Origin: Ahrensia sp.
Lineage (GTDB): Bacteria > Pseudomonadota > Alphaproteobacteria > Rhizobiales > Rhizobiaceae
Length of the DNA: 42,868 nucleotides
Direction of reading: 5' to 3'
Assembly (NCBI GenBank): GCA_002706335.1
Contig: PAKZ01000042.1
Span: 1 to 42,868 of the forward strand
Both the position numbers and the translations under genes were made by a program. Shown here one piece after another: positions 27,289-40,254 of this stretch (within the stretch, counting starts at the first letter, position 1; each line of letters opens with the position of its first letter). Below the pieces are notes generated by a model. The model saw nothing but the letters and a program-made list of their open reading frames with translations, had not been told where the DNA came from and did no database searches.

Positions 27289-28491
27289 TCAGACGGCTTC
27301 CAGTGCGATGGCGATGCCCTGGCCGACGCCGATGCACATGGTCGCGAGCGCGCGTTTGCCGCCGCGCATCTGCATTTCCAGCGCTGCTGTCCCCGTGATG
27401 CGCGCACCCGACATGCCGAGCGGGTGACCGAGCGCGATCGCGCCACCATTCGGATTGACGTGTCCGGCGTCCTCGGCGATGCCCAGATCACGCAACACCG
27501 CAATGCCCTGGCTGGCGAAGGCTTCGTTCAACTCGATGACATCGAAATCCTTCGGCGCAAGGCCGATGCGGGCGCAGAGCTTCTTCGTCGCCGGCGCCGG
27601 GCCGATCCCCATGATGCGCGGCGGAACGCCCGCCGTCGCGCCGCCGACGATGCGCGCGATGGGCGTCAGGCCGTATTTCTTCGCGGCCTGTGCCGACGCA
27701 ATGATCAGCGCCGCCGCGCCGTCATTGACGCCGGACGCGTTGCCGGCGGTCACGCTGCCGTTCTCGCGGAATGGCGTGCGCAGTTTGGCCAGCGCCTCCA
27801 TCGACGTCTCGCGCGGATGCTCGTCCGTGTCGACGACAAGCGGGTCGCCCTTGCGCTGAGGAATGGAGACGGGACCGATCTCCCTTGCCAAGCGTCCGTT
27901 CTTCTGCGCCGCCGAGGCCCTGGCCTGCGAGCGGAGCGCGAAGGCGTCCTGATCCTCTCTGGAGACCTTGAACTCCTCCGCGACGTTCTCGCCGGTCTCC
28001 GGCATGGAATCGACGCCGTACTGCTTCTTCATCACCGGATTGACGAAGCGCCAGCCGATCGTGGTGTCGTGGATTTCGGCATGACGCGAAAAGGCGGTCT
28101 CGGCCTTCGGCATGACGAAGGGAGCGCGGCTCATCGATTCCACGCCGCCTGCGACAGCCAGTTCGATCTCGCCCGCCTTGATCGCGCGCGCCGCCATGGT
28201 GACGGCATCCATGCCGGAGCCGCATAGCCGGTTGATCGTGGTGCCGGGCACGCTGACCGGCATTCCGGCGAGCAGAAGGCTCATGCGCGCGACATTTCGA
28301 TTGTCCTCGCCGGCCTGATTGGCGCAGCCGTAATAGACCTCGTCGACCGCCTCCCAGTCGACGCCGGCATTGCGCTTCATCAGTTCCCGGATCGGGATCG
28401 CGCCGAGGTCGTCGGCGCGCACAGAGGAAAGCGCACCGCCGAAGCGGCCGATGGGAGTGCGGATATAGTCGCAGATAAAGGCGTCGGTCAT
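27289..28491 (-). CDS. pcaF: 3-oxoadipyl-CoA thiolase
   Basis: A 400-residue thiolase that splits 3-oxoadipyl-CoA into succinyl-CoA and acetyl-CoA, the last step of the protocatechuate branch of the 3-oxoadipate pathway. The acyl-enzyme Cys lies in NRLCGSGMDAV, the His in NGGAIALGHPLGMSGAR and the second Cys in MCIGVGQG. Full length. It follows pcaJ by 10 bp in the order pcaI-pcaJ-pcaF. Sequence alone cannot exclude a general acetyl-CoA acyltransferase, but the context is decisive. Confidence 0.94.
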   Translation of the reverse strand: MTDAFICDYIRTPIGRFGGALSSVRADDLGAIPIRELMKRNAGVDWEAVDEVYYGCANQAGEDNRNVARMSLLLAGMPVSVPGTTINRLCGSGMDAVTMAARAIKAGEIELAVAGGVESMSRAPFVMPKAETAFSRHAEIHDTTIGWRFVNPVMKKQYGVDSMPETGENVAEEFKVSREDQDAFALRSQARASAAQKNGRLAREIGPVSIPQRKGDPLVVDTDEHPRETSMEALAKLRTPFRENGSVTAGNASGVNDGAAALIIASAQAAKKYGLTPIARIVGGATAGVPPRIMGIGPAPATKKLCARIGLAPKDFDVIELNEAFASQGIAVLRDLGIAEDAGHVNPNGGAIALGHPLGMSGARITGTAALEMQMRGGKRALATMCIGVGQGIAIALEAV

Positions 28492-28501
28492 TCAAGAATC
28501 C

Positions 28502-29188
28502 TCAGAGTTCCGGTACGGCGAGATCGGCGAAATCGCCCTCGACCTTCAGTTCCGCGCCGGTCACCGCCTGAAGGTCGTCGAATGAAATCTGCAGCAGCTT
28601 CTCGCGCAAAACGAAATGGCCGTTCTCAATATCGACAACGGCGAGCGAGGTATAGATACGGGTCACGCAGGCAAGGCCGGTCAGCGGCATGCTGCATCGC
28701 TGTACCAGCTTCGGCTCTCCCTTTCGCGTGACATGGTCCGTGACGACGGCGACACGCCTGGCGCCGTGGACGAGGTCCATCGCGCCACCTACGGCCGGCA
28801 CACCACCCTTGCCCGTAGACCAATTGGCAAGATCGCCATTCTCGGCGACCTGATAGGCGCCGAGTACCGCGAGGTCGAGATGGCCGCCGCGCACCATCGC
28901 GAAACTGTCGGCATGATGGAAGAAGGCGGCGCTCGGCTTGAGCGTGACCGCCTTCTTGCCGGCATTGATCAGATCCCAGTCCTCTTCGCCTTCCGCCGGC
29001 GCCGCGCCGAAGCCGAGCACTCCGTTTTCGGTGTGATAGATTACGTCGCGGCCTTCCGGCTGGAACTTCGCAATCATCTCTGGAAAGCCAATGCCCAGAT
29101 TCACATAGGCGCCGTCCTCGATATCCTGGGCTGCGCGCCAAGCGATCTGCGCGTTGGACAGCTTGATGGCGTCGAGTTGTGCACTCAT
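28502..29188 (-). CDS. pcaJ: 3-oxoadipate CoA-transferase subunit B
   Basis: A 228-residue beta subunit that with PcaI moves CoA from succinyl-CoA to 3-oxoadipate. The catalytic glutamate is in YHTENGVLGFG, and NLGIGFPEMIAKF is the usual first motif. VGGAMDLVHGARRV and VVDIENGHFVLRE complete the family. The start overlaps the pcaI stop by four bases. Confidence 0.94.
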   Translation of the reverse strand: MSAQLDAIKLSNAQIAWRAAQDIEDGAYVNLGIGFPEMIAKFQPEGRDVIYHTENGVLGFGAAPAEGEEDWDLINAGKKAVTLKPSAAFFHHADSFAMVRGGHLDLAVLGAYQVAENGDLANWSTGKGGVPAVGGAMDLVHGARRVAVVTDHVTRKGEPKLVQRCSMPLTGLACVTRIYTSLAVVDIENGHFVLREKLLQISFDDLQAVTGAELKVEGDFADLAVPEL

Positions 29189-29892
29189 GGATAGACCGCT
29201 CCCTCACGGTTGAGGACTTCTTCCTGCTTCGGCTCGGAAATCTCGACGACGCCATCGACGAAGATGCCGGGCGTGACCACATGCTCAGGATCGATGGAGC
29301 CCGCCGGTACGATGCGCGAGACCTGGGCAATGGTCTTTTCCGCCGCCATGGCCATCAGCGGATTGAAATTCAGCGCAGCCATCCGGTAGGTGAGATTGCC
29401 CAGGGGATCGCCGAGCTCAGCCTTGATCAGGGCGAAATCGGCCTTCAGCCAGCGCTCCTGCACATAGTGCCGCCCGTCGAATTCGGCGACGGGCTTACCC
29501 TCTGCGAGTTCTGTGCCGTAGCTCGTCGGCGTGTAGAACGCGGGGATGCCCGCACCGCCGGCGCGAATACGTTCCGCGAGCGTGCCTTGCGGTACGATTT
29601 CCAGCTCGATCTTTCCGGCGAAGTACAGATCCGTGAACACTTTCGGGTCAGTGGACCGGGGAAACGAACAGATAAGCCTGGCGACCTGTCCCTGCTCGAT
29701 CAGCGCGGCAAGCCCGACATGGCCATTGCCGGCATTGTTGTTGACGACGGTCAGGTTCCTCGGCCCCGCGTCAACCAGCGCGTGGATCAGTTCGACCGGC
29801 GCGCCAGAGCCGCCGAACCCGCCGATCATCACTGTCGCGCCATCGCCGATATCGGCCACGGCCGCTGCCGGAGAAACAATTGTTTTGTCCAC
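29185..29892 (-). CDS. pcaI: 3-oxoadipate CoA-transferase subunit A
   Basis: A 235-residue alpha subunit of the CoA transferase. GGFGGSGAPVELIHALVD is the CoA-binding glycine-rich motif, and VVNNNAGNGHVGLAALIEQG follows. The start is the GTG at 29892, with GGGAGGAAG upstream; the frame reaching 29952 is out of character. First gene of pcaIJF, divergent from the IclR regulator, with a 113-bp shared promoter region. Confidence 0.93.
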   Translation of the reverse strand: MDKTIVSPAAAVADIGDGATVMIGGFGGSGAPVELIHALVDAGPRNLTVVNNNAGNGHVGLAALIEQGQVARLICSFPRSTDPKVFTDLYFAGKIELEIVPQGTLAERIRAGGAGIPAFYTPTSYGTELAEGKPVAEFDGRHYVQERWLKADFALIKAELGDPLGNLTYRMAALNFNPLMAMAAEKTIAQVSRIVPAGSIDPEHVVTPGIFVDGVVEISEPKQEEVLNREGAVYP

Positions 29893-29957
29893 CGAGGCTT
29901 CCTCCCGAGGATAATGCTCTCGTGTCTTCCTCTTGCAAGCTCCGGAATGCAATGGCG

Positions 29958-29983
29958 TTTGTTCACATATTGATATTTGTTCA
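29958..29983. promoter_or_regulatory. TTTGTTCA direct repeats between pcaI and pcaR
   Basis: TTTGTTCA occurs at 29958-29965 and again at 29976-29983, in phase at 18 bp, inside an AT-rich patch between the divergent pcaI and pcaR starts. It is a likely operator for the IclR-type regulator or part of the two promoters. Position and AT-richness are the only evidence. Confidence 0.4.
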
Positions 29984-30005
29984 AATACTGCTAGTTCCTG
30001 TGCGG

Positions 30006-30764
30006 ATGTTGAACAAGACGGATATCATTGCCTCGCTGGGCAAGGGACTTCGCGTTCTGGAGTGCTTTGGCGCCGACAGTCCGCGCCTAGCCATCGCGGA
30101 GGTTGCAGAAGCGTCCGGTCTCGACCGCGCCACGGCGCGTCGATGCCTGCTGACGCTGCACGAATTCGGCTATGCGGATTATGACGGAAAATTCTTCAGC
30201 CTGACAACGCGGGTCCTGCGGCTCGGCATGGGTGCGCTGGCCGCCCTGCCCCTGCCCCAGATCGTCCAGCCGTGGCTCGACCATCTGTCCGAGCAGATCG
30301 ACCAGTCGGTGTCCGTCGCGATCCTTGATGAAACCGAGATCGTCTATGTCGCCCGCGCGGCGCAGCGGCGGGTCATGTCGATCGGTCTGATGCCGGGATC
30401 GCGGCTGCCCGCCCATTGCACGTCGATGGGGCGCGTGCTGCTCGCGGCCTTGCCGGAGAACGAGGCGCGCGCCGTGGTCGAAGCCTCTGACCTCACCCCG
30501 CGCACGCCGCATTCGCGGACCGACCCGGAGGAGATCATGGCCTTCATCGCCGGGACGCGGGCGGCAGGCCACGCCGTTGTCGACCAAGAGGTCGAACTCG
30601 GGCTACGATCGCTGGCCGTGCCGGTGATCAATTCGCGCGGCCAGACAGTGGCGGCCCTCAATACGGGCGTAGCGGCGGTTCAGCAGAATGCGGATGAAAT
30701 CGTGCAACTCTACCTGCCAGCCTTGGTCAAGGTGCAAGACGGATTACGCCGCGTGTTGAATTGA
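30006..30764 (+). CDS. pcaR: IclR-family regulator of the 3-oxoadipate genes
   Basis: A protein of about 252 residues with an N-terminal winged helix (SLGKGLRVLECFG, then LAIAEVAEASGLDRATARRC as the HTH) and a C-terminal effector domain (GSRLPAHCTSMGRVLLAAL, VDQEVELGLRSLAVPV). These are IclR hallmarks. PcaR in relatives activates pcaIJ in response to 3-oxoadipate. I start at ATG 30006; a longer frame begins at 29880, overlapping pcaI, and a further ATG at 29952 is possible. Its position divergent to pcaIJF supports the name. Confidence 0.88.
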   Translation: MLNKTDIIASLGKGLRVLECFGADSPRLAIAEVAEASGLDRATARRCLLTLHEFGYADYDGKFFSLTTRVLRLGMGALAALPLPQIVQPWLDHLSEQIDQSVSVAILDETEIVYVARAAQRRVMSIGLMPGSRLPAHCTSMGRVLLAALPENEARAVVEASDLTPRTPHSRTDPEEIMAFIAGTRAAGHAVVDQEVELGLRSLAVPVINSRGQTVAALNTGVAAVQQNADEIVQLYLPALVKVQDGLRRVLN

Positions 30765-30911: not shown

Positions 30912-31400
30912 TCACGAAGAGACCCAGAAACCTTCATGCACGACAGAGGACTCCTCTGACAGGAGAGGTCCGACCCCCTCGATCTTGCGTTGCCCCGCCG
31001 CCACGACCTGCGCACAGGGCAAGTCCATTGTGAGGTTCTCCGGATCCGGACCGATTAGATCCTTCAAATCCTTTTCGCTCATGCCGTGAACGATGCGACC
31101 GACGCCTGCCCAATAGACCGAACCGGTGCACATCACGCAAGGTTCCGCGCTAGTGTACATGGTGCATCTCGACAAGAAGTCGGCATCGTATTTCATAGAG
31201 GCTTCCGTCATCAGATTGCGTTCGGCATGGCCCGTGCGATCGCCCTTGGTGCCGCATGTGTTCATGGCTTCGAGGAGGATCGTACCATCGCGGTCGGCGA
31301 GCAGCGCTCCGAACGGATGGTCGCCGCGCTCGCGGGATAGGCGCGCCAGTTCGATGGTGCGGCGAAGCAGGTCGAGATCGCGCTCGGGGCTGATGGTCAT
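30912..31400 (-). CDS. Guanine/nucleoside deaminase of the CDA fold
   Basis: A 162-residue zinc deaminase. The zinc and catalytic motif is GHAERNL (HAE) and EPCVMCTGSVYWAG gives PCxxC; HPFGALLADRDG is the N-terminal strand pair shared with bacterial guanine deaminase. The family covers guanine, cytosine and guanosine deaminases. Next to xanthine-type riboswitches, conversion of guanine (or guanosine) to xanthine (or xanthosine) is the likely role; this is inference. The ATG at 31400 has GGAG eight bases upstream. Divergent from the transporter operon. Confidence 0.85.
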   Translation of the reverse strand: MTISPERDLDLLRRTIELARLSRERGDHPFGALLADRDGTILLEAMNTCGTKGDRTGHAERNLMTEASMKYDADFLSRCTMYTSAEPCVMCTGSVYWAGVGRIVHGMSEKDLKDLIGPDPENLTMDLPCAQVVAAGQRKIEGVGPLLSEESSVVHEGFWVSS

Positions 31401-31591
31401 TGTAGTTTCTCCGTATCTGGCAACCGTTCCACCTAAGGGCTCGCGCGCGGCCGCGCAACCGGCTTTGCACATTCGAAAAGCAGGAGTTTGTTCTGCATAT
31501 TTCTTGTGCATGCGATAGCATCTGGTGCCGCTCTCCAAGGCAAACCAGCCCGAAAAAACTACTTGGAATGGCTATATTCCGGGAATCCGGC

Positions 31592-31608
31592 TTGGCACGC
31601 CGCATGCA
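31592..31608 (+). promoter_or_regulatory. Sigma-54 (RpoN) promoter
   Basis: TTGGCACG (31592-31599), four bases, ATGCA (31604-31608) matches the -24/-12 consensus YTGGCACG-N4-TTGCW with one mismatch and has the invariant GG and GC at the correct spacing. The predicted start is about 31619, exactly at the first base of the riboswitch (31620). A TGGTGC at 31523-31528 resembles one NtrC half-site, with no second arm. This suggests nitrogen-regulated expression of the transporter. Confidence 0.72.
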
Positions 31609-31619
31609 GGGGCTATTCG

Positions 31620-31661
31620 CGAGTAGAAGCGGTCAGGACAAGGCGTCCGGGACATTGCTCG
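31620..31661 (+). promoter_or_regulatory. Xanthine-I (NMT1-motif) riboswitch, copy 1
   Basis: The sequence GAGTAGAAGCGGTCA, a small hairpin, then GGGACATTGCTC matches the NMT1 motif as I remember it: P1 is CGAG/CTCG (31620-31623 with 31658-31661), the hairpin is GGAC/GTCC (31636-31639 with 31645-31648). The blocks GTAGAAGC and CATTGCTC flank the hairpin and are conserved in copy 2, while the stems differ and still pair. NMT1-motif RNAs bind xanthine and urate and are named for NMT1-domain transporters, which is the gene 143 bp downstream. Two more hairpins (TCGGAT/ATCCGA at 31719-31734; GCCAC/GTGGC at 31739-31752) lie in the leader. Confidence 0.82.
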
Positions 31662-31804
31662 GCAAACGAAGGCTCATTCGGAGATCGGCCCGTGCCGCCT
31701 GCTCATATGTCCGCAATATCGGATTCTGATCCGAATCTGCCACGCAAGTGGCGGTCCGTTTCGTATGCGAAAAACAAAGCCATTAGCAGTGAGGATATGC
31801 GAAG

Positions 31805-32803
31805 ATGACAACGAAGATACTCAAGGCGCTTGCCGCCGGCACGATTGCGGCACTCGGCTCTGTCGCGGTGGCCGAAGCGGCGGATACCGTCACGTTCCAG
31901 CTCGACTGGCTACCGGGCGGCGACAAGGCACCGATCTATATCTGCATAGAGAAAGGCTTCTGCGCCGAAGAAGGCATCGAAGCGAAGGTCGAACCGGGAC
32001 GCGGCTCTTCCGAAGCCATCACCAAGCTGGCAACGGGCGTGTCCGATGTCGGCTCGGCCGATATCGGCGCGCTGATGGCAGCCAAGGTGACCGAGGATGT
32101 TCCGATCACAGCCGTCATGTCGATCTTCAACAAAGGTCCGCATGCTTTCTTTGTGCTGAAGGACAGCGGCATTGAGGACATCCCGGGCATCAAGGGCAAG
32201 GAAGTCGCCACGTCGCCCTTTACCTCGTCCAACGTGTTCCTGCCGCTGGTCCTGAAGGATGTCGGCATGACAGACGACGACATCAAGCTGACGAAAGCAG
32301 ATCCGGGCGCGCTCGGCCCGATGCTGATGACCGGCGCCACTGATGTCGTCATCGCTTGGATGACCAATGTCGCCGTCTTCACCAACCAGGCAAAGGAAGC
32401 CGGCAAGGAGATCACGGCGTTGCCGTGGGATGCCGCCGGCCTCGAACTCTATTCCGCCTCGCTACTCGCCTCCGACAAGTTCCTGACCGAGCGTCCGGAC
32501 GTCGCCAAGCGCTTCGTCAAGGCGTTCACCAAATCGCTGGAGTTCGTCAAGAACAATCCCACCGAGGCCGCCGAGGGCATGGTTGCCCAGATTCCGGAAC
32601 TCTCGGTTCCCGACATCGAAGGGTCGATCAAGGACACGATGACCCTCGAGTTCAACGATGTGACGGAGAAGGACGGTTTGGGCGCGTTCGAACCCGGCCG
32701 CCTTGCCGCCACCTGGGACCGTGTTTCCGCCGCGCAGGGCCTCGACAAGGACGCGCTCGATCCCGAGACGATCGTTGATCGCTCTTACCTGTCGGGAATG
32801 TAA
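31805..32803 (+). CDS. NMT1/SsuA-type ABC transporter substrate-binding protein
   Basis: A 332-residue periplasmic binding protein with a signal peptide (to about AEA at residue 25). The mature start VTFQLDWLPGGDKAPIYICI and the GVSDVGSADIGALMAAK region are typical of the NMT1 (PF09084) family, which binds pyrimidines, thiamine precursors, sulfonates and purines. A GAGGA is nine bases before the ATG. The upstream xanthine-type riboswitch points to an oxidised purine as ligand. It opens a three-gene importer operon. Confidence 0.9.
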   Translation: MTTKILKALAAGTIAALGSVAVAEAADTVTFQLDWLPGGDKAPIYICIEKGFCAEEGIEAKVEPGRGSSEAITKLATGVSDVGSADIGALMAAKVTEDVPITAVMSIFNKGPHAFFVLKDSGIEDIPGIKGKEVATSPFTSSNVFLPLVLKDVGMTDDDIKLTKADPGALGPMLMTGATDVVIAWMTNVAVFTNQAKEAGKEITALPWDAAGLELYSASLLASDKFLTERPDVAKRFVKAFTKSLEFVKNNPTEAAEGMVAQIPELSVPDIEGSIKDTMTLEFNDVTEKDGLGAFEPGRLAATWDRVSAAQGLDKDALDPETIVDRSYLSGM

Positions 32804-32808
32804 ACAAC

Positions 32809-33585
32809 ATGACGGCCACGCCAGCAGCGATCCGCTTTGCGGGCGTCGGACAGGTCTTCCAGACCCAATCCGGCGCGCTCGAAGCGCTCCGGGGCGTCGA
32901 CATGACAATAGACCGCCACGAATTCGTGGCGGTCCTTGGCCCGTCGGGCTGTGGAAAGTCTACCTTGTTGCGCCTGACCTCGGGACTGCTCATGCCGACG
33001 CGAGGCACGATCGAAGTCTTCGGCAAGAAAGTCACGGAGCCGCGTGATGATATCGGCATCGTCTTCCAACGCCCGACCCTGCTGCCTTGGGCGACGATCG
33101 AGGACAATGTGTTGTTCCCGGTACGCCACAAGACCGGTTCCGTCAGTCCCGACGACCGGAAAACGGCGCAGGCACTGATTGAGAAGGTCGGACTCAAGGA
33201 CTTCGAGAAACGTCTTCCCGACGAACTGTCGGGCGGCATGCAGCAGCGCGTCGGCATCGCGCGTGCCCTTTTCATGAACCCGGACATCCTCTTGATGGAC
33301 GAGCCCTTTTCCGCGCTCGACGCATTAACCCGCGAGGAGATGGGTTTCGAATTGCTGCGGATCTGGGAAGACCAGCCGAAGACGGTAATGTTCATCACCC
33401 ACTCGATCAGCGAAGCGGTCTTGCTCGCCGACCGCATTCTGGTCATGGGCGAAAGGCCGGGTTCCATAGTCGAGAATTTGAAGACAGACATTCCTCGTCC
33501 CCGCGACATGGAGACGAGCAACAACCAGTTGATGCATGACTATGTCGGACACCTCCGCAGTCTCCTCCTCAAGCGCGCCGCCTGA
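32809..33585 (+). CDS. ABC transporter ATP-binding protein
   Basis: A 258-residue importer ATPase. Walker A is GPSGCGKSTLL, the signature is LSGGMQQRVGIARAL, Walker B is ILLMDEPFSALD, and the switch His follows in FITHS. It is of the SsuB/TauB subfamily that pairs with NMT1-type binding proteins. The start is five bases after the preceding stop; the 3' end overlaps the permease gene by 50 bases. Confidence 0.95.
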   Translation: MTATPAAIRFAGVGQVFQTQSGALEALRGVDMTIDRHEFVAVLGPSGCGKSTLLRLTSGLLMPTRGTIEVFGKKVTEPRDDIGIVFQRPTLLPWATIEDNVLFPVRHKTGSVSPDDRKTAQALIEKVGLKDFEKRLPDELSGGMQQRVGIARALFMNPDILLMDEPFSALDALTREEMGFELLRIWEDQPKTVMFITHSISEAVLLADRILVMGERPGSIVENLKTDIPRPRDMETSNNQLMHDYVGHLRSLLLKRAA

Positions 33586-34384
33586 GCCGGAAGCAGTTCC
33601 CGCGGCACGGCCGCTTATGGCGCGCGCCATGGTGACACCGGCTCTTCTGCCGGTCGGCACGTTTGTCGCGATCATCGCCGTGTGGGAGATTTCCTGCCAC
33701 CTGTTCGCGATTCCGTCTTTCGTTCTGCCTGCACCCAGCCGTATTCTGGGCGGCTTCGGATCGATCGATATCTTACGCTGGTTCGAACATGTCTGGGGGA
33801 CGTTGCGGGTGGCGATGATCGGCTATTTCGTTTCGATCGCCGTCGCCATACCGATCGCCATCGCGCTTGCCCGGTCGCAGGTTCTGTCACGCGCATTCTA
33901 TCCGATACTCGTCATCGTACAGTCGACCCCGGTCGTCGCGATCGCGCCGATCATCATCGTCGCGCTCGGCTCAGGCGACCTGCCGCGCGTGGTCATCACA
34001 TGCCTGATCACCTTCTTCCCGCTGGTCGTCTCGACCACCACGGGCCTTATGGCGACGCCGCCGGAACTGATCGAATTGTCACGGAGCCTGCGGGCTCCGG
34101 TGTTTCGCGAGATCAGCCAGATCCGCCTGCCCTATGCGATCCCCTATATTTTCTCGGCGCTGAAGATCTCGGTCACTTTGGCCGTCATTGGAGCGGTCGT
34201 CGCCGAGTTCGTCGCCGCCGAAAAGGGGCTCGGCTATTTCATCCAGTTCTCGACCTCCATGTTCAAGGTGCAGCAGGCTTGGGCCGGGCTCGTCATCCTC
34301 GTGCTGATGTCACTGGTGCTGTTCCAGGCCGTCATCGCGGTGCAACGCATTTGGTTCCCGTGGAGCCTGCCGAAGGACAAGTAA
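33536..34384 (+). CDS. ABC transporter permease
   Basis: A 282-residue inner-membrane permease with about six helices. The cytoplasmic coupling (EAA) loop is SRSLRAPVFREISQIRLP, and AVVAEFVAAEKGLGYFI is typical of SsuC/TauC permeases. The N-terminal 30 residues are Ser/Pro-rich and cytoplasmic. The start lies 50 bases inside the ATPase gene, so translation is coupled; a second ATG two codons later is possible. It completes the importer. Confidence 0.93.
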   Translation: MTMSDTSAVSSSSAPPEPEAVPAARPLMARAMVTPALLPVGTFVAIIAVWEISCHLFAIPSFVLPAPSRILGGFGSIDILRWFEHVWGTLRVAMIGYFVSIAVAIPIAIALARSQVLSRAFYPILVIVQSTPVVAIAPIIIVALGSGDLPRVVITCLITFFPLVVSTTTGLMATPPELIELSRSLRAPVFREISQIRLPYAIPYIFSALKISVTLAVIGAVVAEFVAAEKGLGYFIQFSTSMFKVQQAWAGLVILVLMSLVLFQAVIAVQRIWFPWSLPKDK

Positions 34385-34466
34385 GACCAATCCGCTCGGC
34401 GGAGAGAAAGCGAAAAGTCAGGAGTTAATGCGGGCACTGGTTCAGGGACCGCCCGTCCCGGCGAAT

Positions 34467-34511
34467 AGGAGTAGAAGCAGTCAACGCCGTCCGGCGCGGG
34501 TCATTGCTCCT
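34467..34511 (+). promoter_or_regulatory. Xanthine-I (NMT1-motif) riboswitch, copy 2
   Basis: AGGAG/CTCCT forms P1 (34467-34471 with 34507-34511), and CGCC/GGCG (34485-34488 with 34493-34496) forms the inner hairpin with a GTCC loop. The conserved blocks are the same as in copy 1: GAGTAGAAGC, GTCA, and GGGTCATTGCTC. Stem sequences differ from copy 1 but still pair, i.e. covariation. It lies 45 bp before the first oxygenase start. GGAG of the ribosome site (34545-34548) could pair with the P1 3' strand CTCC, a possible but weak switch. A TGG-N10-GC at 34438-34452 may be a poor sigma-54 promoter. Confidence 0.82.
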
Positions 34512-34555
34512 TCACGATCGCGGCTACGGCCGTATTCAGGAATTGGAGATTAACA

Positions 34556-35557
34556 ATGGAAACGACAGCAAATAAACACGACTATTCCCTCGCAGAACTG
34601 AACAAGGAAGCGACCTTCGGCGGCATGGGTCGCGAGAAGGTGCGCGAGGTTCCGCAGATCGATCTCTCGGATTTCGCCAACCGCAAGGCCGAGATCGCAG
34701 ACCAGCTTTGGGCGGCCTCGACCGAGATCGGCTTCTTCCAGCTTATCAATCACGGCATCCCGCAGGCCCAGATCGACGAAGCCTTCCTCTATTGCGAAAA
34801 GTTCTTCGACATGCCGATGGACGTGAAGGCGAAATACCCGCTCGAAAAAGGCACGAATTCCGGCTGGGAATACAAGGCACAGGTGCGCCCTTCCACTGGA
34901 ACGGCGGACAACAAGGAATCCTACCAGATCACACTTCCGCGGATGGGCAAATTATGGCCGACCGGCAAGGAAGCTCCGGGCTTCAAAGCCGTCATGCTGG
35001 CCTTCGAGCGCGCCAACTGGGCGCTTGGCATGAAGGTACTTTCCTGTTTTGCCATGAAGCTCGGCTTTTCGGAGGATTTCTTCACCGAGGCGCATGACCC
35101 GATGTCGCCGCAATACCAGAGCACGCTGCGGATGATCCATTACATGCCGATGGACAACGCCAAGCCGGAGGACTTTACCGGCTGGCGCGCCGGCGCGCAT
35201 ACGGACTTCGACTGCCTGACGCTGCTGCACCAGCGCACCGGCCAAGGCGGCCTGCAGCTCTGCCCCGGCAAGGAAGCAACCAGCGGCGAGCTCGAATGGA
35301 CAGACGTGCCGCCATTGCCGGGCGCCATCACCTGCAATATCGGCGACATGCTGATGCGCTGGAGCGACGACCAGCTTCAGTCGACGCTGCACCGGGTGCG
35401 CATGCCGCGCCAGGACGAGTATATGGGGCCGCGCTACTCGCTCCCCTTCTTCTGCCAGGCCAACAAGGACGTCATCATCCAGGGTCCGGGCAAGAAATAC
35501 GACCCGATCACCGCACAGGACTACCTGCTGCAGCGAATCGCCGCCAACTCTCTCTAA
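34556..35557 (+). CDS. Isopenicillin-N-synthase-like Fe(II) oxygenase 1
   Basis: A 333-residue non-haem iron oxygenase of the IPNS/DAOCS-like family, normally 2-oxoglutarate dependent. The iron ligands are His215 and Asp217 (AGAHTDFDCLT) and His279 (STLHRVRMP); the co-substrate-binding pair is Arg293/Ser295 (GPRYSLPFF). The N-terminal DIOX_N part has VPQIDLSDFANRK and IGFFQLINHGIP. Substrate is unknown; control by a xanthine-type riboswitch suggests a purine or related heterocycle, as for thymine-7-hydroxylase in the same superfamily. GGAG is seven bases before the ATG. No beta-lactam genes are near, so penicillin synthesis is unlikely. Confidence 0.9.
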   Translation: METTANKHDYSLAELNKEATFGGMGREKVREVPQIDLSDFANRKAEIADQLWAASTEIGFFQLINHGIPQAQIDEAFLYCEKFFDMPMDVKAKYPLEKGTNSGWEYKAQVRPSTGTADNKESYQITLPRMGKLWPTGKEAPGFKAVMLAFERANWALGMKVLSCFAMKLGFSEDFFTEAHDPMSPQYQSTLRMIHYMPMDNAKPEDFTGWRAGAHTDFDCLTLLHQRTGQGGLQLCPGKEATSGELEWTDVPPLPGAITCNIGDMLMRWSDDQLQSTLHRVRMPRQDEYMGPRYSLPFFCQANKDVIIQGPGKKYDPITAQDYLLQRIAANSL

Positions 35558-35579
35558 CAGCCTGGCGCTAAGGCGAACT

Positions 35580-35600
35580 GGCGGCCCCGACAGGGCCGCC
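35580..35600 (+). other. Hairpin between the two oxygenase genes
   Basis: GGCGGCCC (35580-35587) and GGGCCGCC (35593-35600) form a perfect 8-bp stem with a CGACA loop, in the 80-bp gap between the oxygenases. No T-run follows; it may stabilise the upstream mRNA or attenuate the downstream gene. Confidence 0.55.
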
Positions 35601-35637
35601 TCCTCTGCGTCCCGCAAATTATCAAGGAGCCGTTCCG

Positions 35638-36621
35638 ATGAACACGTCTCTCGATGCCAAACGCGTCACCAGCGAAGCCTTGCCAGTTGTCGATGTATCC
35701 GGCCTTTCCTCCTCAGATCCGGTACAACGCAAAGCGGTCGGCGCCGCTCTCCGGACCGCGTGCCTCGACAAAGGCTTCTTCTACTGCGTCGGCCACGGCG
35801 TTCCGCAGGGCCTGATCGATGCCGTCTTCACTGAAACGAAGCGATTTTTCCACCAGCCCGTCGAAATGAAGATGCTCTACGAGAAATCGCAGGTTTCGAA
35901 GTGCAATCGCGGCTACGAGGTACTTGGCGGCCAGGTTCTGGAGGCAGGCGCTCCGCCGGACAGGAAGGAAGGCTACTACATCGGCCTCGAATTGCAGGAG
36001 GACGATCCACGGGTGGCAGACGGCCGCTTCAATCGCGGGCCGAATGTCTGGCCGACCGATCTTCCCGGTTTTCGTCCGACGATGAGCGCCTATTACGCAG
36101 CCATGCGCAGCCTCAGCGAACTCCTGATGAATGGAATCGCCCTGTCTCTCGAACTGCCCGAAGACTATTTCGAGATATACAAGCGCGATCCGATCGCCAC
36201 ACTACGCCTCCTCCATTATCCGCCGCAACGCGAGAATGCCGAACCCAACGAGAAGGGGGCCGGCGCGCATACCGACTGGGGCGCGTTGACACTGCTGCTC
36301 CAGGACCAGGTTGGCGGCTTGCAGGTCTTCGACCAGGCGACCGACGGCTGGATCCATGCCGAACCGATCGCCGGAAGTTTCGTTGTCAATCTTGGCGACA
36401 GCCTGGCCCACTGGACGAACGACCGCTACAAGTCGACGCGGCATCGCGTGGTCAATTCATCCGGCCACGAGCGCTATTCGATCCCCTATTTCTACGAGGG
36501 CGATGCCGACTACGAGGTGACCTGCATTCCAACTTGCCTGAAGCCCGGCGAGGAGCCGAAATACGCTCCAATCACGGTCGAGGGGCATCTGATGAAGATG
36601 TACAAGCAATCCTATGGCTGA
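35638..36621 (+). CDS. Isopenicillin-N-synthase-like Fe(II) oxygenase 2
   Basis: A 327-residue paralogue-like oxygenase of the same superfamily but clearly different from the first. Iron ligands are His211, Asp213 (GAGAHTDWGALT) and His269 (STRHRVVN); Arg279/Ser281 (HERYSIPYF) bind the co-substrate. The N-terminus has LPVVDVSGLSSSDPVQ and KGFFYCVGHGVP. AAGGAG precedes the ATG. It follows oxygenase 1 in the same riboswitch-led unit and overlaps the hydrolase by eight bases. Substrate is unknown. Confidence 0.9.
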   Translation: MNTSLDAKRVTSEALPVVDVSGLSSSDPVQRKAVGAALRTACLDKGFFYCVGHGVPQGLIDAVFTETKRFFHQPVEMKMLYEKSQVSKCNRGYEVLGGQVLEAGAPPDRKEGYYIGLELQEDDPRVADGRFNRGPNVWPTDLPGFRPTMSAYYAAMRSLSELLMNGIALSLELPEDYFEIYKRDPIATLRLLHYPPQRENAEPNEKGAGAHTDWGALTLLLQDQVGGLQVFDQATDGWIHAEPIAGSFVVNLGDSLAHWTNDRYKSTRHRVVNSSGHERYSIPYFYEGDADYEVTCIPTCLKPGEEPKYAPITVEGHLMKMYKQSYG

Positions 36622-37360
36622 TCCGGTCGTCTTGATACACGGCGCATGGCAGGGCAGTTGGGGATGGGCGCGTCTCATCCCGTTGCTCGAAGACGGCGGG
36701 CTGGAATGCCTGGCGGTGGACCTTCCGGGCAGCGGCACGGAGACCGTGCCGCCGAGCGAAATCACGCTCGAAACCTGTCTCGACTATCTCGAAGGAGTCC
36801 TTGCGGAGATCGGCCGGCCGGTCTCGCTGGTCGGCCATTCCGGCGGCGGCATTATCGCCAGCGCCGCCGCCGAACGGTTTCGCGACCGCATCAACCGGAT
36901 CGCCTATGTCGCCGGCATGATGCTGCCGTCCGGGATGGCCTTCGGCGACTTGCAGAAAGAGCTGCAGGAACAGGAAGGTTTTTCGCAGGGGATCAGCGAC
37001 CGCATCGTCTATTCCGATGACCGGCAGAGCAGCACCGTTCCACCCGAGGAAGCGGCGGCGATCTTCTTCAACGACTGCCCGCGCGACGTCGCCATGGAGG
37101 CGGCGATGAAGTTGACGTCGCAGGCGGAAGGCGCGCGGGCCATTCCGCCCGAATTGACGCCCGAGCGCTTCGGTACGCTGCCCCGCCTCTACGTGGAAGC
37201 GACCGACGATCGCTCCGTCGTCCTGCTTGCGCAACGTCGGATGCAGGAGCTGGTGCCAGGCGCCAAGGTCAGATCGCTGCCCGCCGGGCATGCGCCGCAA
37301 TTGAGCAAACCGGCCCTCCTCGCCGAAGCCCTGATTCCTTTTCTGGTAGGTAAGGCCTGA
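36614..37360 (+). CDS. Alpha/beta hydrolase (esterase-like)
   Basis: A 248-residue alpha/beta hydrolase of the plant-methylesterase/hydroxynitrile-lyase-like group. The oxyanion region is VLIHGAWQGSWGW; the nucleophile is Ser76 in VGHSGGG, the acid is Asp198 or Asp199 (EATDDRSV) and the base is His226 (PAGHAPQLSKP). No signal peptide. The start overlaps oxygenase 2 by eight bases, so the two are co-translated. It may hydrolyse an oxidised or ring-opened product of the oxygenases; that is inference. Confidence 0.88.
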   Translation: MADPVVLIHGAWQGSWGWARLIPLLEDGGLECLAVDLPGSGTETVPPSEITLETCLDYLEGVLAEIGRPVSLVGHSGGGIIASAAAERFRDRINRIAYVAGMMLPSGMAFGDLQKELQEQEGFSQGISDRIVYSDDRQSSTVPPEEAAAIFFNDCPRDVAMEAAMKLTSQAEGARAIPPELTPERFGTLPRLYVEATDDRSVVLLAQRRMQELVPGAKVRSLPAGHAPQLSKPALLAEALIPFLVGKA

Positions 37361-37711: not shown

Positions 37712-39214
37712 CTAGAAGTCGAACTTGACACCCTGTGCGAGCGGTAAACGGTCCGAATAATTGATCGTGTTGGTCTGGCGGCGCATGTAGCCGCGCCATG
37801 CATCAGAACCGCTCTCGCGGCCGCCGCCGGTTTCCTTCTCGCCACCGAAAGCCCCGCCGATTTCGGCGCCCGAAGGACCGATATTGACGTTGGCGATGCC
37901 GCAATCCGATCCAGCGTGCGAAAGGAAGGTCTCCGCTTCCCGCATGTTGAGCGTAAAAATACAGGATGAGAGACCTTGCGGGACGTCGTTCTGCAGCGCG
38001 ATCGCCTCGTCGAGCGTGTCGTAACCCAGCAAATATAGGATCGGTGCAAAGGTTTCCGTGCGAACGATCTCGGACTGCGTCGGCATTTCCGCGATGGCCG
38101 GCTCGACATAGGCTCCGCCCTGCGGCACGCCGGAAGACACCGTTTTACCGCCATGTACCGTGGCGCCTTCGGAGCGAGCCTTTTCCAGCGCAGCCAGCAT
38201 TTTGTCCCGGGCAGCATGATCGACGAGCGGACCGACGAGCGTCTTGCCATCGCGCGGGTCGCCGATCGGCAGGCTCGAATAGGCCTTGGCGAGCTTGGCA
38301 GCGAGTTCCTCGCGAATGCTGTTGTGAGCAATGACGCGGCGCAGCGACGTGCACCGTTGCCCGGCCGTACCGACCGCCGAGAAAACGATCGCACGCACGG
38401 CCATGTCGAGATCAGCGGACGGCGCAACGATCATCGCATTGTTGCCGCCCAGTTCGAGGATGGGGCGTCCCCACCGCGCCATCACCTTCGGCCCGACAAC
38501 CGAGCCCATCCGGGTAGAGCCAGTGGCCGAGATAATCGGCACATCCTTCGATGACACCAACGCTTCGCCGATTTCGACACCGCCGATCACCAGTTGGACA
38601 AGTCCTACAGGTGCCTCGGAGCCGAAGCGATCCAGCGCGCGCTGCATGACCTTCATTGTGGCAATGGCTGTCAGCGGCGTTTTCTCGGATGGCTTCCAGA
38701 TAACCGGATTGCCGCAGACCAGAGCCAGCGCGGTATTCCACGACCAGACCGCGACCGGGAAGTTGAACGCGGTGATCACACCGCAAGGCCCAAGCGGATG
38801 CCAGGTCTCCATCATGCGGTGGCCGGCGCGTTCGGAAGCAATCGTGAGACCGTAAAGCTGCCGCGACAATCCAACGGCGAAGTCGCAGATATCGATCATC
38901 TCCTGAACCTCGCCAAGACCTTCGGACACGATCTTGCCGGCCTCGAGCGTTACTACCGCGCCGAGTTCTTCTTTCGATTTGCGCAGCTCTTCGCCAAGCA
39001 GACGAACGAGTTCGCCACGGCGCGGTGCCGGCACTTGCCGCCAAGCGCGGAAGGCTTCCTGCGCCTTCGCGATGATCGCCATCATATCGGCGGCATCGGT
39101 CTCGTTCACGCGGGCGACCTCGGCTCCGTCGATCGGCGAATGAACGGCCAGCGTGCCTCCGGTCAGATCGGCTTCGGTCAGCCCGGCTGCCTTGAGAACA
39201 TCCGTGTGCGTCAT
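37712..39214 (-). CDS. amaB: 2-aminoadipate-semialdehyde (piperideine-6-carboxylate) dehydrogenase
   Basis: A 500-residue ALDH7/antiquitin-type aldehyde dehydrogenase. It oxidises 2-aminoadipate semialdehyde (in equilibrium with piperideine-6-carboxylate) to 2-aminoadipate in lysine catabolism. The catalytic Cys is in GTAGQRCTSLRR, the Glu in LELGGNNA, and the C-terminal NIGPSGAEIGGAFGGEKETG and YMRRQTNTINYS segments are ALDH7 hallmarks. AAAGGAG precedes the ATG at 39214, which overlaps the previous stop by four bases. Last gene of the operon. Confidence 0.92.
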   Translation of the reverse strand: MTHTDVLKAAGLTEADLTGGTLAVHSPIDGAEVARVNETDAADMMAIIAKAQEAFRAWRQVPAPRRGELVRLLGEELRKSKEELGAVVTLEAGKIVSEGLGEVQEMIDICDFAVGLSRQLYGLTIASERAGHRMMETWHPLGPCGVITAFNFPVAVWSWNTALALVCGNPVIWKPSEKTPLTAIATMKVMQRALDRFGSEAPVGLVQLVIGGVEIGEALVSSKDVPIISATGSTRMGSVVGPKVMARWGRPILELGGNNAMIVAPSADLDMAVRAIVFSAVGTAGQRCTSLRRVIAHNSIREELAAKLAKAYSSLPIGDPRDGKTLVGPLVDHAARDKMLAALEKARSEGATVHGGKTVSSGVPQGGAYVEPAIAEMPTQSEIVRTETFAPILYLLGYDTLDEAIALQNDVPQGLSSCIFTLNMREAETFLSHAGSDCGIANVNIGPSGAEIGGAFGGEKETGGGRESGSDAWRGYMRRQTNTINYSDRLPLAQGVKFDF

Positions 39215-40254
39215 GAATTTTCTCCTTTGGATACGGTTGCCCGCTGGTCCGGCATTCCCATGGAAGCCAGCAGCGGCGTTTCGTCCTGACGGGCCCGGAA
39301 ATCGTCCTTGCCGCCCATGCCGCGCCATCCGGCGAGGATCAGCGACTGGGCCACCGCCCCGCCCAGTGACGTGCCGGGGCCGGTGATGATGAACAGGTCG
39401 GGCGCAAATTCGCGGGCGGCTACTGTCACCGCTCGCGTGAAGTCATAGGTGTCGGTCACCTGCGCGCCGAGCGTGTAGTCCCACAAGTCGTATGTGTCGC
39501 TCGCGCCTGGCCACCAGATCGCGCCGCGGCCGTCAATGAGCGGCAGACGGGGTTGCGCGAAAAGGGCTGACGAAAGCCTTTCACGCCCGTCCGCGGCCAC
39601 AGGCGCTTGCAGAGCGGTGTGAAAAGCGGCGTGATTGCCAAGCCGCATTGGAAAGCGCTCCTGCACCGGATCGACGGCCGACTCGAAGGCACTCAGTCCG
39701 GCCTCGTTTCCCGCCAGAACCAGCATGCCGCCCAACGCAATGGAAAGTGCAAGCGCATGATCCGCCCTGGACGCGATATCATCGACCAGCGCCAAAAGGG
39801 CAGCGCGGCGCTCCGGGTTCGGCCGCCAGTCTTCGCCGACAAACGGGTAAATCAACTGCCCGCCGATCAGCGATCGCTGCATCAGCGTACCCATCGTATT
39901 GGAGACATGGAAGCCGTCCTGAGCCGACAGTGCGCCGCCACAGGCGAGCGCCGAATACCACCCCATCGAATTGCCGGTAACCGCGACGATCTCAATATTG
40001 TCGCGATCGATCGACAGGAAATCACCCAGCGTTGCCGCGTAGATGAGCGCAGAGGCATTGTCGCCGCGCGTGTGAGTCGCCAACGAGAAACGCGATGCGC
40101 CATCCAATTCGCTGAGCGTCGGCTGACCCTGAGCACGACGCTGGCTGTCGAAGGCTTCCAGGAGCGACCTGTCGGGAAAGTGGCGCGCCAGATACCCCAA
40201 TTCCGCCTTGTTGTAGGTACCCCTGCCAGGGCAGATCAGGACGGCGGTTTTCAT
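39211..40254 (-). CDS. FabD-like acyltransferase, malonate-binding Arg absent
   Basis: A 347-residue protein of the FabD/acyltransferase fold. The nucleophile is Ser96 in VTGNSMGWYSALACGG and the partner His212 is in NHAAFHTALQAP. Aligned without gaps to E. coli FabD from its GHSLGEYSAL motif, the malonate-binding Arg117 falls on Met121 (NTMGTLMQ). So malonyl-CoA is an unlikely substrate. It is coupled by ATGA overlaps to the E1 gene before and the ALDH gene after. Most annotation pipelines would name it ACP S-malonyltransferase; I think the role is in lysine breakdown but cannot tell which acyl group. Confidence 0.85.
   Translation of the reverse strand: MKTAVLICPGRGTYNKAELGYLARHFPDRSLLEAFDSQRRAQGQPTLSELDGASRFSLATHTRGDNASALIYAATLGDFLSIDRDNIEIVAVTGNSMGWYSALACGGALSAQDGFHVSNTMGTLMQRSLIGGQLIYPFVGEDWRPNPERRAALLALVDDIASRADHALALSIALGGMLVLAGNEAGLSAFESAVDPVQERFPMRLGNHAAFHTALQAPVAADGRERLSSALFAQPRLPLIDGRGAIWWPGASDTYDLWDYTLGAQVTDTYDFTRAVTVAAREFAPDLFIITGPGTSLGGAVAQSLILAGWRGMGGKDDFRARQDETPLLASMGMPDQRATVSKGENS

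Follow-up and report, generated by a model that had tools for sequence, protein, structure and literature searches.

Two apparent forms of a xanthine riboswitch, two oxygenases and a hydrolase in a candidate purine-processing locus of Ahrensia sp.

The locus considered here lies at positions 30912 to 37360 of contig PAKZ01000042.1 of Ahrensia sp. (assembly GCA_002706335.1; "the window" is the whole 42,868-nucleotide stretch that was analysed), and consists of a deaminase, an importer, two oxygenases and a hydrolase arranged around two xanthine riboswitches. The guanine/TadA-type (guaD-like) deaminase gene is on the reverse strand at 30912..31400 (PF00383, 63.6 bits), divergent from the importer; its open reading frame (ORF) remains open to 31538, but a start near 31400 (MTISPERD), shared by its relative in locus L018, is more probable. 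Everything else is on the forward strand. The first riboswitch (31616..31665; RF03054, 54.5 bits, E 1.5e-9) has G16, A43 and CUCG as the P1 3' strand, and is called form A below; 26 nucleotides (nt) behind this aptamer begins a short leader ORF (31692..31808), with a GTG start and a Shine-Dalgarno sequence, which overlaps the start of the next gene (ATGA). Three genes encode an ATP-binding cassette (ABC) importer: an NMT1/THI5-type substrate-binding protein (31805..32803; PF09084, 128.9 bits), an ATPase (32809..33585; PF00005) and a permease (33536..34384; PF00528). The second riboswitch, form B (34464..34514; RF03054, 49 bits, E 5.3e-8), has A16, U43 and CUCC as the P1 3' strand (34507-34510), and is followed by two 2-oxoglutarate (2OG)/Fe(II) oxygenase genes, OXY1 (34556..35557) and OXY2 (35638..36621), both matching PF14226 (DIOX_N) and PF03171 (2OG-FeII_Oxy). 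Last comes HYD (36614..37360; PF12697, Abhydrolase_6, 100.6 bits), an alpha/beta hydrolase of the methylesterase/hydroxynitrile-lyase type which shares its first 8 bases with the end of OXY2. Matches to Pfam and RF03054 bear out every part that a preliminary description of this DNA had named: the deaminase, the NMT1-type importer, the two oxygenases, the hydrolase and the two xanthine-type riboswitches.

That description had put the locus forward as a candidate undescribed one, but riboswitches with such importers, oxygenases and deaminases are published, and the locus is therefore of a published kind. Yu & Breaker (2020; PMC7373994) describe 649 RNAs of this class, found with oxygenases of the pcbC type, importers of the NMT1 and tauA types, amidohydrolases of the PRK12393 type, tsx and, in rare cases, tadA; the window shares with those regulons the riboswitch family and the downstream types. 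It differs from them in that a hydrolase is tied to OXY2, and in that the riboswitches come in two forms according to the downstream gene, where that paper has one OFF class. Its main text does not use the word "esterase", and the mentions of "hydrolase" found there include no alpha/beta hydrolase; it gives the precise functions of oxygenases under xanthine riboswitches as not established, and reports no oxidised-purine degradation genes among those associated. Literature searches brought up no published substrate or cluster judged relevant to these enzymes.

The gene set is found again, its orientation changed, in Zhengella, Roseibium and Rhodobacterales, among others, in agreement with the earlier view of a linked, purine-related set; the linkage of deaminase and importer to the oxygenases, whose absence had been named as an argument against that view, is conserved across these relatives. 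Roseibium marinum (L027) keeps the window's layout, with seven genes 77-87% identical. Genomes G026 (apparently Zhengella mangrovi, L041) and G048 carry the same genes with the OXY2-HYD pair in the other orientation, and in addition two amidohydrolase-type genes, AH1 and AH2, and a third oxygenase, OXY3; G024 and G057 have the importer and OXY1 without OXY2-HYD. The AH1 representative (from L018) belongs to PRK12393 (654.9 bits, cut-off 543), and the AH2 representative (from L019) to the NCBIfam 8-oxoguanine deaminase family (625.5 bits, cut-off 532). Among 27 OXY1 loci (the window and the duplicates L018, L025 and L026 left out), an ABC importer is found in 23, the AH1 deaminase family in 22 and guaD, which recurs beside the importer in related loci, in 18; the counts for OXY2 (18) and HYD (13) are inflated, because 17 of the loci came from the OXY2 search. 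A riboswitch stands directly before OXY1 in 24 of the 27 (5 of these were among the sites used to build the model), before the operon in two, and is lacking in one (L083); this regularity, too, appears to be new.

An alignment scan of the species-genome collection gave 286 relatives of OXY2, of which the best 80 were counted: in 62 of these 80 loci, from alpha-, beta- and gammaproteobacteria, HYD is the next gene downstream of OXY2 and has the same orientation, and in 65 it is present somewhere in the locus. Adjacency at this frequency suggests that the two probably run consecutive steps, and the pairing appears to be new. Importer and guaD accompany 21 of the 62 pairs, 10 of them with OXY1 as well. 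HYD is otherwise uncommon: with the window's own genome set aside, a search of 385 genomes of the class at E 1e-30 turned up 17 places, 31-39% identical. A 2OG oxygenase of the same type stands before the three best of these (L113-L115), and the other 14 have none of this type within 1.5 kb on either side. A relative of OXY2 (54%) also occurs on a Moraxella osloensis plasmid (L021, 5968-10065), together with a second 2OG oxygenase, an OmpK porin and an annotated NCS2 nucleobase symporter.

Both oxygenases keep the residues expected for iron and 2OG binding, an HxD...H triad and an RxS motif (H215, D217, H279, R293 and S295 in OXY1; H211, D213, H269, R279 and S281 in OXY2), and they fall into separate tree clades with support 100/100 (29 rows of OXY1 and 27 of OXY2, about every third, the groups having been pre-defined by similarity). 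Thymine-7-hydroxylase (5c3p), an oxygenase whose substrate contacts are Asn87, Glu122, Arg190, Tyr217, Phe292 and Asn294 (PMC4787775), is among the Protein Data Bank (PDB) relatives of both, at distant similarity, and its free-base pocket is partly shared. The Asn87 position is kept in 28/28 OXY1 and 75/76 OXY2 sequences (aligned by eye for OXY1), Arg190 in 28/28 and 75/76 (the remaining one was not parsed) and Phe292 in 28/28 and 76/76, and the aromatic residue following HxD (217 in thymine-7-hydroxylase) is present in all. The contacts Glu122 and Asn294, in an alignment made partly by eye, are replaced in both enzymes: the former by Gln or Tyr in the window proteins, the latter by Gln in OXY1 and by varied residues in OXY2. 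Membership in the thymine-7-hydroxylase family was rejected on these two replacements; to judge by sequence, the partly kept pocket fits a free-base oxygenase of another specificity, and carries the assignment no further. HYD resembles the plant SABP2 (1y7h) and 3dqz in sequence, and its Ser-Asp-His triad (S76, D199, H226, assigned by family resemblance) is invariant in 43/43 sequences; unlike the plant methylesterase/hydroxynitrile-lyase hydrolases, it is bacterial and the direct neighbour of an oxygenase.

For the importer, the PDB relatives of the binding protein include THI5 and the pyrimidine-binding protein 3ix1. A sulfonate or taurine importer was rejected, the scores against the SsuA and taurine-binding-protein models being 93.1 bits (cut-off 163.5) and 30.9 bits (cut-off 304.25). 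The PDB relatives of the deaminase include guanine deaminase (1wkq/1tiy, 57 bits) and guanosine deaminase (7dbf), the best being the CMP/dCMP-deaminase-like 5xkq (73.5 bits); the tRNA adenosine deaminase TadA was rejected (NF008113, 49.3 bits against a cut-off of 150). On a Klebsiella plasmid (L015) and a Rahnella plasmid (L016), a riboswitch, a further substrate-binding protein, AH1 and OXY1 adjoin a second importer, with neighbours named in the Rahnella annotation as creatininase-family, RidA, cytosine-deaminase-like and PDR/VanB oxidoreductase genes.

Both window riboswitches have the conserved core and exceed the curated RF03054 cut-off of 36 bits. Of 665 first-look candidates in the 5.1 Mb genome 150 were scored, and no further riboswitch emerged; 14 control genomes gave none. 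Stricter filters applied to 385 genomes of the class found two, G100 was a sixth riboswitch-bearing genome, and further searches around G100 and G048 added no new one. A model built from 11 sites and run over 91 sources gave 44 sites: 25 before OXY1, 15 before the binding protein, three before AH1 and one (L085) with no scored gene nearby, which was left out of the comparison. (For L015 and L016, 1.1 kb separate the riboswitch from the scored AH1, which lies behind a binding protein that the reference set missed.) The 18 sites before importer or AH1 have G16 (18/18), A43 (17/18) and CUCG or CUCA as the P1 3' strand (18/18), and the 25 before OXY1 mostly have U43 (22, the exceptions being L012, L013 and L014) and CUCC (23, the exceptions being L062 and L014, the latter a weak site at 26.3 bits, E 0.0016). 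Position 16 is A or U in 18 of the 21 form-B sites parsed; an A here, in our numbering, corresponds to the G12A mutant of the crystal study, which binds xanthine 7-fold more weakly (PMC8266621).

The rule was then applied to OXY1 genomes unused before (11, from the 14 of 397 genomes of the order that carry OXY1). Ten of the 11 loci gave 15 sites, and all fit, with CUCC at 10/10 before OXY1 (U43 in 8) and 0/5 before the importer, but they cannot be counted as independent, three being from congeners of G057 and L162 showing the Rhizobium/Agrobacterium form again. In total CUCC is the P1 3' strand at 33/35 sites before OXY1 against 0/23 before importer or AH1 (Fisher's test for 33/34 against 0/23, L014 left out, gives 4.5e-15, for sites that are related and so not independent). 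The riboswitches before importer and before OXY1 therefore look like two forms divided by the downstream gene, a division that appears to be new.

Could the two forms also differ in what they do? Other RF03054 members bind xanthine or urate, the latter 7-fold more weakly (PMC8266621), and repress translation, the OFF effect coming from one reporter, wild type against aptamer mutant (PMC7373994). At 13 of 18 form-A sites a start codon preceded by a Shine-Dalgarno sequence lies 23-29 nt behind the aptamer, suggesting a leader, coupled to the distant gene, as the target of the riboswitch; the start in question is that of AH1 itself in L111, and in L027 and L011 the leader frame continues into the binding protein. 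In form B, the CUCC strand is complementary to the OXY1 Shine-Dalgarno sequence GGAG (34545-34548 in the window). Folding of 30 of the 35 form-B leaders (L012, L013, L014, L158 and L162 left out) gave, for the 11 with a start at least 28 nt behind the aptamer, a mean unpaired Shine-Dalgarno probability of 0.54 with P1 formed against 0.05 with P1 prevented, rising by more than 0.2 in 10 of them; for the 19 short leaders the values were 0.41 and 0.31, with five such rises. A drop of more than 0.2 with P1 formed occurred in 0/30. Swapping the P1 closing pair alone to the form-A kind raised the free-state mean in the long leaders from 0.05 to 0.38, with no response in L041 and L043.

Form A showed no net shift at the Shine-Dalgarno sequence (mean change +0.02 over 12 leaders); the window's own form-A leader went from 0.55 to 0.12, in the published OFF direction. 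These form-A values come from a run with a cruder choice of Shine-Dalgarno sequence. There, in the bound state, among 24 form-B sites, the Shine-Dalgarno sequence was more open in 10 and less in one, and the start codon more open in 10 and less in five; the corresponding counts for the 13 form-A sites covered (of 18; 12 had a start) were four and three, and eight and one. Folding is a weak method here, biased toward ON because preventing P1 frees its 3' strand, and with no clear OFF sign for form A it cannot by itself settle the direction: the evidence, from modelling, is the contrast between the two forms at the Shine-Dalgarno sequence. From this, xanthine may switch OXY1 ON by way of form B, opposite to the published effect, and the prediction conflicts with the single published reporter result if that site were form B.

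One can go further and propose that a single locus uses the two forms for opposite outcomes, form A, before the importer or AH1, stopping xanthine supply and form B, with its CUCC strand as anti-Shine-Dalgarno, turning OXY1 on with xanthine; as a model built on predicted folds, this is doubtful. In 15/15 same-genome pairs, the calculated pairing with the OXY1 start is more stable for the form-B strand than for the form-A strand (-9.8 vs -5.5 kcal/mol). No genome-by-genome match of the form-B strand to its own OXY1 start emerged from a permutation test, in which 3357 of 5000 permutations were as low (no start was found in two of 24 loci, L064 and L111, and it was mispicked in at least L011, L020, L056 and L069). 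The form-A start codon opens in 8/12 leaders (mean +0.24), against the published direction. If the proposal were true, OXY1 would be a xanthine-responsive consumer enzyme and the two RNAs together a push-pull control of the xanthine pool; the tracking of form with downstream gene gives a handle on whether one aptamer class both represses supply and induces consumption in one locus.

The preliminary description was right that the window has no xanthine dehydrogenase, uricase or allantoinase, but this does not extend to the genome. Contig C37 carries xdhA- and xdhB-type genes, the latter followed by genes for OHCU decarboxylase (223 bits) and hydroxyisourate hydrolase (128.7 bits), and contig C32 a PuuD-type urate oxidase domain, of a kind found in 5/5 riboswitch genomes checked, Ahrensia among them. 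XdhB scores 1121 bits (TIGR02965, cut-off 849.5) in Ahrensia and is above cut-off in 42 of 61 genomes, Ahrensia included, among them all five riboswitch genomes checked (the sixth, G100, was outside the set). With xanthine dehydrogenase and urate oxidase encoded, the oxygenases need not replace the former, and that earlier suggestion was rejected. A second purine cluster lies on C32 (L140, 5660-10547), with AH2, OXY3 and a BMP-type ABC importer, 72-83% identical to the genes of G026 and G048. AH2 adjoins OXY3 here, as in L018 and L019. No AH1 above cut-off was found in the genome, the best PRK12393 scores (384 and 357) belonging to AH2-type genes.

In this setting it seems reasonably probable that the locus is a xanthine-sensing module for purine import and processing, feeding the ordinary xanthine dehydrogenase/urate oxidase pathway elsewhere in the genome. 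The ABC importer would bring in a guanine-type free base, and the GuaD-like deaminase, going by its family, would convert it to a xanthine-type base; OXY1 would hydroxylate a free purine base, either at an N-alkyl group, then lost, or at a ring carbon, to give xanthine or urate, while OXY2 and then HYD, whose linkage suggests consecutive action, would oxidise and hydrolyse a related purine. The two riboswitches would report the xanthine/urate pool separately to the importer and to OXY1. The product is likely to be xanthine or urate for the ordinary pathway, and HYD gives a handle on the OXY2 reaction, whose product should be cleavable by a serine hydrolase. Besides the two replaced base contacts, several observations weigh against such a module. 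The 80 OXY2 loci are interrelated, so that their counts are not independent; 17 of them, several being short contigs, have no scored purine neighbour; the OXY2-HYD pair of Marinomonas foliarum (L105, 10001-11727) stands among genes not purine-related in appearance; and among OXY2 loci without OXY1 no riboswitch was found except in L085. An improbable reading is that the substrate of the two oxygenases and HYD is no purine, and that they are only neighbours of a purine importer: the 17 loci would fit, but a xanthine riboswitch precedes OXY1 or its operon in 26/27 loci, and 63/80 OXY2 loci have one or more scored purine markers nearby, some markers having been scored loosely (BMP from 25% and AH2 from 36% identity).

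Action of the oxygenases on methylated or otherwise modified purines, as earlier suggested, is possible. The module could quite conceivably degrade methylated or N-alkylated guanines or xanthines, for example from RNA turnover, with OXY1 and OXY2 hydroxylating the N-methyl group as thymine-7-hydroxylase does the methyl group of thymine, and HYD removing an over-oxidised (N-formyl) group or opening an activated ring. That enzyme is a relative of both with part of its pocket kept, the oxygenase clades tend to pair with a deaminase or hydrolase (AH1-OXY1, AH2-OXY3, OXY2-HYD), and the product, xanthine, would be a riboswitch ligand; but no methylated-purine-specific gene was identified, and thymine-7-hydroxylase is a distant relative in sequence, with scores equalled or exceeded by other family members. 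Ring hydroxylation, for example of guanine to 8-oxoguanine and on to urate by AH2, would provide a molybdenum-free side route past xanthine dehydrogenase, and would suit both the 8-oxoguanine deaminase assignment of AH2 beside OXY3 and the binding of urate by the riboswitch. It appears rather unlikely, given that the five riboswitch genomes checked, all with xanthine dehydrogenase, have no evident need of it and that the window lacks both AH1 and AH2. A further point against it is that XanA, the xanthine hydroxylase of fungi that uses 2OG, belongs to a different 2OG subfamily. A further system, HpxDE of Klebsiella (cited in PMC7373994), resembles the proposed module by description, as an oxygenase-based oxidation of hypoxanthine and xanthine linked there to the same riboswitch class; in Ahrensia, by contrast, those steps can be assigned to xanthine dehydrogenase and a PuuD-type urate oxidase.

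Outside the locus, a thiolase-like ORF and two CoA-transferase-subunit-like ORFs (assigned by eye) at 27289-30764 adjoin a PcaR/PcaU-type regulator (318.3 bits, cut-off 284.75), and this part of the window is probably the end of a beta-ketoadipate pathway. On the other side, convergent with HYD, is a gene for L-piperidine-6-carboxylate dehydrogenase (37712-39328; 810.7 bits, cut-off 730).

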